From Desulfonatronovibrio magnus (GTDB taxonomy: Bacteria; Desulfobacterota; Desulfovibrionia; Desulfovibrionales; Desulfonatronovibrionaceae), in the NCBI RefSeq assembly GCF_000934755.1, contig NZ_JYNP01000058.1, positions 1-34,132 of the forward strand: DNA of 34,132 nucleotides. The letters are read 5' to 3'. The translations under genes and the position numbers were made by a program. Below, in pieces: positions 24,901 through 27,193 of this stretch; the first letter of the stretch is position 1; every line of letters begins with the position of its first letter. The notes under the pieces were generated by a model. That model was not told the origin of the DNA. It made no database searches and was given only the letters and a program-made list of their open reading frames with translations.

Positions 24901-27193
24901 TTCACCGCCATACACTGTCAATGACTTAGCAGATTTTCTTTTAGAAAAAGGATACAAGCTTTTGGTAAGTGAGTGGCACCCAATTATCCGTTATGGCATA
25001 CGTCATGATTGGAATAGACTGTCAAGATATGATAGCAGGCAAGACCTTGATAAAAGCTGGGGGAATATAATAGCTTTTACTGATAGCAATCATGAAAACG
25101 AATTTATTTTGAATCTAAAAAATCAATTCTATTCAATGCCCGATAAAAACGATATAGATAACTCTCACAAAAGATCGCATCACAATATAATTAATATAGT
25201 GAACAGCGATATCCTTACAATTGAAAATTTACTTTCAAGATATATACACACTCAAGGCAAAAAACTTCAAAGCGTTATCGATGGTGGTGCAGGACAAGGT
25301 ACATTCCTACAAGACATTTGCAAACATTTTGATAACGATTGCAAAATATTCGCTGTAGAGCCATTCCCAGGCAATTTAGACATGTTAAATAAAAACATTT
25401 CGCAAGATAGCAGAATTAAGCTATATCCTTATGCGCTCTCCATAAATGAAGATCATAGATATTTCTTCAATCCCAAAACTATTAATGAAGATTCTACATG
25501 GGGCAGGAAAGGGTTTGCTGGTTGCTCAAATATTGGCAGGTTAATTTCTGAACAAGAAGCTCAAAATATTTTACGAAATACTCAACAATCATCAGGAGAC
25601 TTATTTGTCAACAAGATTGCCTGCACCACGATTGATTCCATCATCAAAAACTATGAAATCAATAATTTAGACCTACTAAAGCTTGACCTACAGGGTGGAG
25701 AGTATGATGCATTATTAGGTGCAAAACATTCAATTAATAACATTAGCTTGATATGGATGGAGATTATTAATGATTTAAGACCTCTTTTGTTACTATCAAA
25801 CCAAGGGTTTTCTATTATGGACACACTTTATGTATTTCCTGAAAAATCAGAAAATATCCTATCGTTTAACGATAATTTTAGAATTATCACCAAAAAAATA
25901 TCGTCTGTTGATACAGTGTATGTTTTTGCAGAAAGAAAATTCAAATGGAAAAATATTATCGAGGAATGGCCACAAATAAAGAAGAAGTTTGGGATGATTC
26001 AAACTGATTTTATTGGCATTAATTCAAATATAGCCAATGACATAATACAGTCAACCAACCCAGAGAGAGAGAGAGAGAGAGAGAGAGAGAGAGAATTATC
26101 AAACACAGTTAAAGCGGTTAAACACCATATAATACCCGCAAACGAACATATCAACTCTAACGGCAAGCATTTTCATGAAAATTTAATAACTGCAGCAAAT
26201 ATCAACCGAGCAAACAACGAGAAACTTCTTTCAATAGCTATACCCACATATTGTCGTCCAAATGAATTAAAACACTGCTTATCGAAGTTTATAGAACAAA
26301 TATCAGGAAAATATGAAGATTTTATTGAAATCATTATTACAGATAATTGCTCTCCAATAGAATGCTACAATGAGGTATCTGAATTTATAAGAAATTATAA
26401 GTTTATATATAGTCATCGCAACTTACAAACTTTCAATATAGAACAAAATATTAAATTATGTGCTGAAAAATGTACAGGCAAGTATCTTTGGATTTTTGGA
26501 GATGATGACTATATAGAAGATAAAAATGCGATAAATTGTATCCTTAATATATTAAGTACATCAGAATATGAATTTCTTGTATTAAATAAAACACGAAAAA
26601 ACAAGAATTTATCCGTGAGCCTTACGAATAATTGGATGAATCTCGATTGCAATAAAGTGTATCCATTTGATGGACTTCGCAGTTTCTGTAAGACATTTGG
26701 GCTGATTAGTGTACTTGGTTTTATTAGCGCAAATATATTTGATAGAAAGAAGTATGCCAATATCGATATTAGTAAATACTTTAACACTTACTATCCTCAT
26801 GTAGGTGCATTTATGGAAGCATTTCATAGCTCAAAAGTATTATTAATTGGCAAACCTTTTATTTGTCACAGAACTATTTCTTCTCAGGAAAAAATAAGCG
26901 ACTTGGCAACAAGACCCGTTGATGAAGATTTTTCAAAAAATGAGTTTTTGAGAAACCAAAAACATCATAGCTTTAGTTGGATTTTGATGCTTGAAAAGCT
27001 CATCAATTTAGGTGTGTTCTCATATGATGATATTTTACAATTGAAGGAAAATACAATTTGCAATGGCTTACTGATAGACTTTATTTTTAAACATCTAAAA
27101 AATAATATTTATTTCGAAAACCAACCAAGCGATGTCAAGAATTCAGTAAAAAAATTTTTTAAAAATTTAAACCTTGAACATAATCAAAATTAA
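21992..27193 (+). CDS. Giant modular glycan enzyme: FkbM - DUF115/MptE-like - FkbM - FkbM - GT2
   Basis: This 1733-residue protein strings five catalytic-type domains together. FkbM methyltransferase 1 is at about 45-205 (CLDIGACYGVY, then DIIKLDVNGHEPQVLQGG). A helical linker region runs to about 565. A DUF115/MptE-like domain spans about 567-800 (CVIIGNGPSLNKMD, GTNFGSTVTHGALQLAYFMG); related domains occur in Maf flagellin-modification proteins and glycan transferases. FkbM 2 is at about 818-1035 (MIDVGAHFG, FLKIDTEGHD). FkbM 3 is at about 1088-1310 (VIDGGAGQG, LLKLDLQGGEYDAL). A GT2 domain is at about 1411-1650 (LSIAIPTYCRP, FGDDDY as the DxD site). An (AG)16 tract encodes an Arg-Glu run at about 1357-1367. 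Sequence after about 23.3 kb is much more AT-rich than before. No ribosome site is clear. It probably builds and methylates a surface glycan in the cytoplasm. Confidence 0.85.
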   Translation: MNNTWQIKIKGNVTITAPATLENMTTCVLLEQEDWFEDEMQLIRRITMSGMNCLDIGACYGVYAKTMAQAAAKVYAFEPGPEVTEYLNSNKPDNLEVISKALSDKPGKASLSQSPPELCKTTQGSDFERITLDNWWNEAGKPQIDIIKLDVNGHEPQVLQGGRDFLTQSSALIIFSAASAEQSMTVLNDLGYEIYRYLPGPDHIVPYSEAKKDQYLLNLIAARPETAEQLSASTQINVNWQNYLGSLPWTREFMPTWQNAGFNYLQALDQLCSGRYEQAVAGLVKIFSQGSPQPSIVVSLSRALYMVGERRRAVQMLEQLSQATQQGQELNFNLPFLPPMPEQDQIPVKESSVEWVKARCMEACVKLRAFSGYFTGDKDLQLLRTIHQNPERLIESERRLALCAMRMGKNIQIRPESRLLTDEHLNAGVWAEIGGGIPNQAENNVKKDEISRNRKTSSEAEKQHFWDKIQVAQAKNDRATYCIELEKYLGKNPDDIKALSMLTNYYWSIWLPDNYQVQLINKAARYVKKEHDRNTELNNVFQKIQILTLRKKGVEIGRQKLAKYENIHRGERCVIIGNGPSLNKMDLSFLKNEYTFGMNRIYLGFDKFDFHPTYHICVNPAMLQQSGREMLEKVKCPKFFHFEAIPTLKPDDDVIYLNCRKTMSIFHTDPRHGTNFGSTVTHGALQLAYFMGFQEVILIGVDHYFATKGQPHKLIESQGDDPNHFDPTYFGKGYKWQLPDLENSEVAYRAAKYHYESVGRRIIDATLDGHCQVFGKVDYRVHFDLNVNHDNFILGPMSRTDSVSIDETKAIAETLLPKINNGVMIDVGAHFGTSLIHFLNNNWTILAFEPDSNNYKRLKSNIDKHPNKTRVHIDRRAVGNQKQKNVPFYVSEESTGISTLSKFHQSHIDNQNVDIVTLQNALEKFDFPHIDFLKIDTEGHDLFVLQGLPWDKYKPTIIECEFENLKTLNVSPPYTVNDLADFLLEKGYKLLVSEWHPIIRYGIRHDWNRLSRYDSRQDLDKSWGNIIAFTDSNHENEFILNLKNQFYSMPDKNDIDNSHKRSHHNIINIVNSDILTIENLLSRYIHTQGKKLQSVIDGGAGQGTFLQDICKHFDNDCKIFAVEPFPGNLDMLNKNISQDSRIKLYPYALSINEDHRYFFNPKTINEDSTWGRKGFAGCSNIGRLISEQEAQNILRNTQQSSGDLFVNKIACTTIDSIIKNYEINNLDLLKLDLQGGEYDALLGAKHSINNISLIWMEIINDLRPLLLLSNQGFSIMDTLYVFPEKSENILSFNDNFRIITKKISSVDTVYVFAERKFKWKNIIEEWPQIKKKFGMIQTDFIGINSNIANDIIQSTNPERERERERERELSNTVKAVKHHIIPANEHINSNGKHFHENLITAANINRANNEKLLSIAIPTYCRPNELKHCLSKFIEQISGKYEDFIEIIITDNCSPIECYNEVSEFIRNYKFIYSHRNLQTFNIEQNIKLCAEKCTGKYLWIFGDDDYIEDKNAINCILNILSTSEYEFLVLNKTRKNKNLSVSLTNNWMNLDCNKVYPFDGLRSFCKTFGLISVLGFISANIFDRKKYANIDISKYFNTYYPHVGAFMEAFHSSKVLLIGKPFICHRTISSQEKISDLATRPVDEDFSKNEFLRNQKHHSFSWILMLEKLINLGVFSYDDILQLKENTICNGLLIDFIFKHLKNNIYFENQPSDVKNSVKKFFKNLNLEHNQN
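26062..26094 (+). repeat. (AG)16 simple sequence repeat inside coding sequence
   Basis: Thirty-three bases of uninterrupted AG repeat encode alternating Glu and Arg between FkbM domain 3 and the GT2 domain. One extra unit gives a TAA 13 codons after the tract (near 26140); one lost unit gives a TAA about 8 codons after it (near 26115). Only changes of three units keep the frame. This is the form expected of a slipped-strand phase-variation switch. Confidence 0.95.

Follow-up and report, generated by a model that had tools for sequence, protein, structure and literature searches.

In this study we analysed a stretch of 34,132 nucleotides from Desulfonatronovibrio magnus (assembly GCF_000934755.1, contig NZ_JYNP01000058.1). 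This stretch, in the following called the window, is an entire contig (C22 of the assembly), and our subject is a tract of alternating AG inside one very large gene of it. In the assembled phase the open reading frame (ORF) of this gene combines three FkbM methyltransferase domains, an MptE-like domain (PF01973, which we take to be the domain named 'DUF115') and, at its end, a GT2 domain (Table 1). The three FkbM stretches were also counted by NCBIfam. The AG run is 33 nt long and was returned by Tandem Repeats Finder (TRF) with a period of 2, 16.5 copies and 100% matches. It encodes a Glu-Arg repeat in the assembled phase and lies in a linker, starting about 100 residues past the third FkbM match and leaving about 46 residues between its end and the GT2 match. 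Since the tract comes late in the gene (residue 1357 of 1733), a slip would alter only the C-terminal part of the product, as in C-terminal phase variation.

Table 1. Coordinates of the AG tract, the giant gene with its domains, and neighbouring genes in the window
Feature	Position	Strand	Basis
AG tract, perfect (AG)16.5, proposed slippage site, residues 1357-1368	26062..26094	+	sequence and TRF
Giant enzyme gene, 1733 aa, full length in assembled phase	21992..27193	+	ORF, Pfam domains
FkbM methyltransferase domain 1, residues 55-175	22154..22516	+	PF05050, E=1.1e-11 on fragment
MptE-like domain, residues 561-705	23672..24106	+	PF01973, E=5.9e-12
FkbM methyltransferase domain 2, residues 826-990	24467..24961	+	PF05050, best stretch
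FkbM methyltransferase domain 3, residues 1099-1257	25286..25762	+	PF05050, E=2.9e-12 on fragment
GT2 domain, residues 1414-1532, predicted lost in two of three phases	26231..26587	+	PF00535, E=1.2e-11; fragment E=1.9e-12
S-layer/RTX-like surface protein, 1158 aa, possible glycan acceptor	11243..14719	+	no Pfam/NCBIfam match
Two TPR-GT41 glycosyltransferase genes	14792-17470, 17473-19602	+	PF13844, E=3.1e-76 and 2.4e-50
Downstream sugar genes: nucleotidyltransferase, epimerase/dehydratase, two C-methyltransferases, oxidoreductase	27304..33401	+	Pfam

When AG units were removed or added in silico, from -6 to +6 (13 cases), the full-length protein was retained only at 0, ±3 and ±6 units. In all eight other cases translation ended at 1370-1382 residues, about 5 or 11-12 codons past the tract; the loss of one unit gave 1372 residues and the gain of one unit 1380. 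The assembled frame stays open for 365 codons beyond the tract. An earlier note on this DNA, made from the sequence alone, had placed an in-frame (AG)16 tract between the third FkbM domain and the GT2 domain, which sequence, TRF and Pfam bear out. Its expectation of an early stop after the gain or loss of one unit (within 13 or 8 codons, at about 1370 residues) was right in substance, and reading frames and domain order agree with its further claim that a slip removes the GT2 part only, leaving the three methyltransferase domains and the DUF115 domain. Between the tract and residue 1542, which lies past the GT2 profile match, we found no in-frame ATG, GTG or TTG; the first in-frame CTG after the tract is residue 1571, and the scan covered these four start codons, with the remaining ones outside it. 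Therefore the whole GT2 module should be made in one phase only, and an internal restart yielding GT2 alone was ruled out, the first in-frame ATG, GTG or TTG being residue 1542. Three features by which contingency loci are recognized are thus seen at this site. The unit length is not a multiple of three and the repeat stands within a reading frame whose off phases end early, the tract is a pure short-unit repeat much longer than chance would give, and it lies in a gene for glycan or surface structure, judged by the names of its families and with GT41, SapC and sugar genes as neighbours.

The tract is an isolated feature of its genome. The 4.81-Mb assembly (97.5% complete) holds no other AG run of at least 18 nt and no AC or AT run of that length (no genome-wide search was made for GC runs). 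Within a genome sample of 436,133 bases that included the window, the tract is also the only dinucleotide run of at least 12 nt, and a first-order model from the window predicts 6e-14 such runs per 4.81 Mb. We therefore rejected, as far as dinucleotides are concerned and with the same restriction for GC runs, the idea that the tract reflects a general abundance of short repeats in the genome. All five whole Glu codons of the tract are GAG and all five Arg codons are AGA. The probability of such a pure GAG-AGA series by synonymous choice is 6.7e-6 with the codon usage of the window and 1.4e-5 with local usage. This synonymous purity argues that the tract was built by slippage and not by selection on the peptide.

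Several findings concern the long form of the enzyme. The part after the tract can be aligned to other GT2 sequences at positions rich in Asp, and an order-wide search with it matched 21 places outside the own genome, at a low identity of 22-35%. Fourteen of these became loci. Ten of the 14 are separate ORFs of 293-369 aa in which the match starts at residues 2-17 (in one case at residue 50); the remaining four comprise one ORF of 489 aa, one of 786 aa and two places without a usable ORF. A paralog of 1484 aa on contig C31 of the same genome shares 53% identity with the giant enzyme over residues 1-435 and also terminates in a GT2 module, with different modules in between. The long form is hence likely to be meaningful, because the frame stays open through a GT2 match and because the C31 paralog ends in GT2 as well. 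In both genes the GT2 end is AT-rich: GC content per 300 nt is 0.29-0.31 in the giant gene and 0.27-0.31 in the paralog, versus 0.50-0.54 and 0.42-0.47, respectively, over the first 400 residues. The two giants thus look like a conserved N-terminal unit to which exchanged C-terminal modules have been joined. In a named genome collection 17 loci matched the giant protein, none of them (0/17) with the whole architecture. A search of plasmids gave no match, and a search of phages gave three weak matches confined to residues 57-168. The GT2 part had no match in a PDB sequence search, and a single-sequence AlphaFold model of residues 1081-1733 (mean predicted local distance difference test score, pLDDT, of 38) was not used. 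Fusions of another kind, GT41 with FkbM in single proteins, occur in several module orders, at L116:2968-6504 (C53, own genome) and at L100:4175-8644 (genome G025).

AG tracts are not restricted to D. magnus. Runs of at least 18 nt were present in 4 of 61 genomes, and (AG)13 in 45 of the order's 297 genomes. Family f5 accounts for 43 of these and family f4 for one; in family f1 (AG)13 was found in the own genome only (1 of 18). Three of the genomes with AG tracts were looked at by tract, covering eight tracts of G053 (which has more), both tracts of G034 and the one of G041. One of the G034 tracts is followed by 974 codons within a GGDEF-EAL ORF. A broader tabulation of 30 of 68 AG places in six AG-rich genomes was not relied on, as its ORFs may be spurious and its pattern misses tracts that begin with G. 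In a further genome, G112, AG tracts of 38-80 nt are intergenic (C1:2402504-2423663; L167, L168). The distance from the end of the tract to the following ORF was 158-163 nt in four of the five measured there and 72 nt in the fifth; one downstream ORF that was scanned is a chemoreceptor, and the others resemble it at the N-terminus. This suggests a transcriptional switch of chemoreceptors by the intergenic tracts of G112.

A parallel to the giant gene was found in the relative G061. In 32 kb of its contig C2 all seven AG tracts (33-55 nt) lie inside ORFs, within an island of 22 kb (246010-267962; L165, L166). The tract genes include two sulfotransferase-like paralogs with the tract at residues 374 and 373, and genes of the radical-SAM or a radical-SAM-like type, in which the tract is at residue 380, 403 or 223. 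A methyltransferase is split at its tract, with 132 residues before it and 3 codons after it in the current phase but 253 in another, and in an FkbM gene the Pfam match stops at the AG tract. Some of these assignments are weak: one sulfotransferase-like protein matched below the cut-off and the other had no match, one radical-SAM match also failed to reach the cut-off, and no match was obtained for the part of the split methyltransferase that precedes its tract. A GT2 sequence weakly similar to the window domain (E=6.7e-4) is found in the island as well. Between the two sulfotransferase-like copies, identity is 90% across some 1500 nt and 84% across the 373 residues preceding the tract; the tracts themselves measure 33 and 38 nt and lead into different downstream frames of 95 and 113 codons. 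As far as sequence comparison goes, this shows that AG tracts in the order change in length and register inside such genes, the change being seen between paralogs and not within a clone.

Taken together, the tract of the giant gene is probably a simple-sequence contingency locus that undergoes slippage of some kind. We propose that replication slippage would add or remove AG units at the tract. One phase of three would give the whole 1733-aa enzyme. In the two other phases the product would be about 1370-1382 residues long, with all three FkbM domains and the MptE-like domain retained and GT2 lost. A clonal population would then become a mixture of two kinds of cells, one whose surface glycan receives the GT2 sugar and one whose surface glycan lacks it. 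The acceptor of this glycan might be the neighbouring S-layer-like protein. A phase switch is likely because AG tracts recur in the order and in the modification genes of G061, with a register that differs between paralogs. We infer from the same evidence that this tract may switch in D. magnus itself at a useful rate, and the predicted short form may be stable and active. A more far-reaching reading is that AG tracts serve as a widespread switch in the order and here gate a single module, such that methylation stays while glycan extension toggles randomly. We hold this reading only tentatively and consider its chances to be somewhat less than even. If it were true, one gene would write two related glycans within a clone, as a sub-gene phase variation of a fused methyltransferase-glycosyltransferase. 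It would also join the AG tracts that related genomes carry in modification genes and before chemoreceptor genes.

Several observations weigh against a module switch. The own genome holds its single AG tract without any cluster, and because of this we do not count the giant-gene tract among the clustered AG-tract islands of the order. The C31 paralog has no tract and its linker is free of repeats. Five genomes of the same genus (77-98% complete) contained no match to the giant protein, and within the species, represented by one genome, no variation was seen. Further GT41 matches of the own genome lie on contigs C48, C53 and C2, and no AG or poly-G tracts were found in the whole of C48 and C53 or in 20 kb of C2. 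In G053 no frame reaches 100 codons past the tract in any of the eight tracts (0/8), which makes a coding switch impossible there, and several of the 13 AG tracts examined in G112 are intergenic. Dinucleotide repeats of Neisseria were deemed unlikely to be phase-variable in one study (PMC5320596). Moreover, a slip might inactivate the entire enzyme and not just a single domain.

This last point leads to the most serious alternative, which shares the slippage step with our preferred explanation and is judged here as the main effect. The short protein might be unstable, or polarity over the untranslated 1.1 kb might lower expression of the sugar genes, and the domain boundary would then be incidental. 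A polar effect of the short phase on the downstream sugar genes is possible, as these start at 27304 on the same strand, and promoter-like and terminator-like sites between 26.1 and 27.3 kb were not above chance in the scan of the region (25 promoter-like versus 20.8 expected; 5 terminator-like versus 8.3 expected). However, all three FkbM domains are complete before the tract begins, as is the MptE-like domain, and therefore the short form could fold. We regard a switch of the whole enzyme or operon as rather unlikely to be the main effect. Less probable still is a neutral microsatellite in a tolerant linker, that is, a run built by slippage whose Glu-Arg product is tolerated and whose out-of-frame forms are occasional mutants with no adaptive switch. 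The interdomain position would fit such an origin, as would the lack of a wider set of dinucleotide tracts in the own genome and the AG runs of relatives that often lie between genes or near gene 3' ends. Yet the one long dinucleotide run that was found stands within a modification gene, where the effect of a slip is large, and the AG-tract clusters in the modification genes of G061 argue for selection and against a neutral microsatellite. Ribosomal or transcriptional slippage might give both forms in one cell, or the tract length might be an assembly error. Tandem AGA codons and repeats can favour slippage of this kind; no result points to either possibility, the assembled length is in frame, and we consider both very improbable. 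Least credible is a Glu-Arg linker of constant length kept by selection on the protein, as the regular charged repeat of the in-phase tract might suggest, since the pure GAG-AGA usage (p = 6.7e-6) and the repeat-free linker of the C31 paralog both speak against it.

The module switch proposed here can be compared with known systems. C-terminal phase variation has been published for Helicobacter canadensis and Neisseria gonorrhoeae (PMC2823697, PMC5320596). There, too, a late repeat alters the C-terminus and leaves translation of the preceding part intact, and some tracts decide on the fusion of two coding regions. The repeats in those species are homopolymers, however, and in H. canadensis mostly change a few residues, whereas here a dinucleotide repeat would remove a module of 350 residues. 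In the NgoAV HsdS protein of N. gonorrhoeae slippage of a poly-G tract makes one gene encode either a short active protein or a longer, fused one, depending on repeat length, much as suggested here (PMC9577141). HsdS differs as a DNA specificity subunit with a poly-G tract, for which the specificity change was shown by experiment (PMC9577141). The type III methyltransferase MmyCI of Mycoplasma mycoides subsp. capri has a coding AG tract whose unit number decides on continued translation, but this is an on/off switch of the whole gene for a restriction-modification enzyme (PMC3498834). In pglB2 of N. meningitidis, a glycan enzyme, the repeat governs fusion to a downstream phosphoglycosyltransferase gene, though the tract is poly-A (cited in PMC5320596). 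Haemophilus influenzae has dinucleotide repeats as well, including a TA tract in a promoter (PMC2651432). The island of G061 is similar in its AG tracts of 33-55 nt inside ORFs, one of them FkbM, and in having a GT2 relative, but it consists of separate genes with many tracts and no fused FkbM-GT2 giant. In a search of open literature, which lacks most subscription papers and was judged by title and the opening of the abstract, we found no report of phase variation by simple sequence or dinucleotide repeats in Desulfovibrio or sulfate reducers. Sub-gene switching is hence not unprecedented, and the earlier note overstated its case in placing a domain-level switch outside the usual contingency loci, given the published C-terminal and HsdS examples. 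Its view of the tract as a phase switch holds in tract position, frame logic, domain order and the loss of GT2 alone, and goes too far in the unusualness claimed for a sub-gene switch. The phase-switch reading is now strengthened because GT2 cannot restart whole and because the G061 paralogs differ in tract length and frame. Unusual here are how large a module would be switched, its joining to three FkbM domains and the repeated occurrence of AG tracts in the order.

The giant gene belongs to a larger locus. Two SapC-family genes (Pfam) also lie upstream of it, and the C31 locus has the same order of S-layer-like protein, GT41, giant enzyme and sugar genes. The S-layer-like ORF of the window aligns by DNA over 233 bases with its C31 counterpart, which has an RTX match. 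S-layer-like proteins on three contigs (window 12404-12636; C31, L044; C53, L116) share a stretch beginning FTTDNDVVGPE, near which the C31 contig ends. It might be possible that these proteins form a cassette set similar to the sap loci of Campylobacter.

Other simple repeats were also noted in this genome. Five poly-G runs of at least 9 nt were found; two of them are intergenic, and one is close to where a small ORF ends. A fourth is within a carboxylase-like ORF whose frame remains open, and the fifth belongs to a decayed gene of contig C31. The latter is a G10 run (L044:2519-2528) within the N-terminal remnant of a gene, presumably of a flavin adenine dinucleotide (FAD)-dependent oxidoreductase-like protein, in the paralogous glycan locus; the reading frame breaks at this run, and the gene is truncated beyond it. 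C53 carries T9 and T10 runs, and the T10 run (L116:9581-9590) precedes the listed start of an opposite-strand S-layer-like ORF by 15 nt. Heptamer repeats are a habit of the whole genome (13 perfect runs of at least 21 nt per 436,133 bases), and therefore those of the window are not special to the giant gene. An imperfect heptamer repeat of 16.7 copies (window 9221-9337) is found just upstream of a DegT/DnrJ aminotransferase gene. Repeats of 41 bp and of 7/14/21 bp (window 21176-21971) surround a gene for a 118-aa four-helix-bundle protein (PF05635), which directly precedes the giant gene. Finally, three tandem repeats of 306 bp, 89% alike, are located at window positions 3682-4586 within an 899-aa ORF (3000-5699) on the minus strand.

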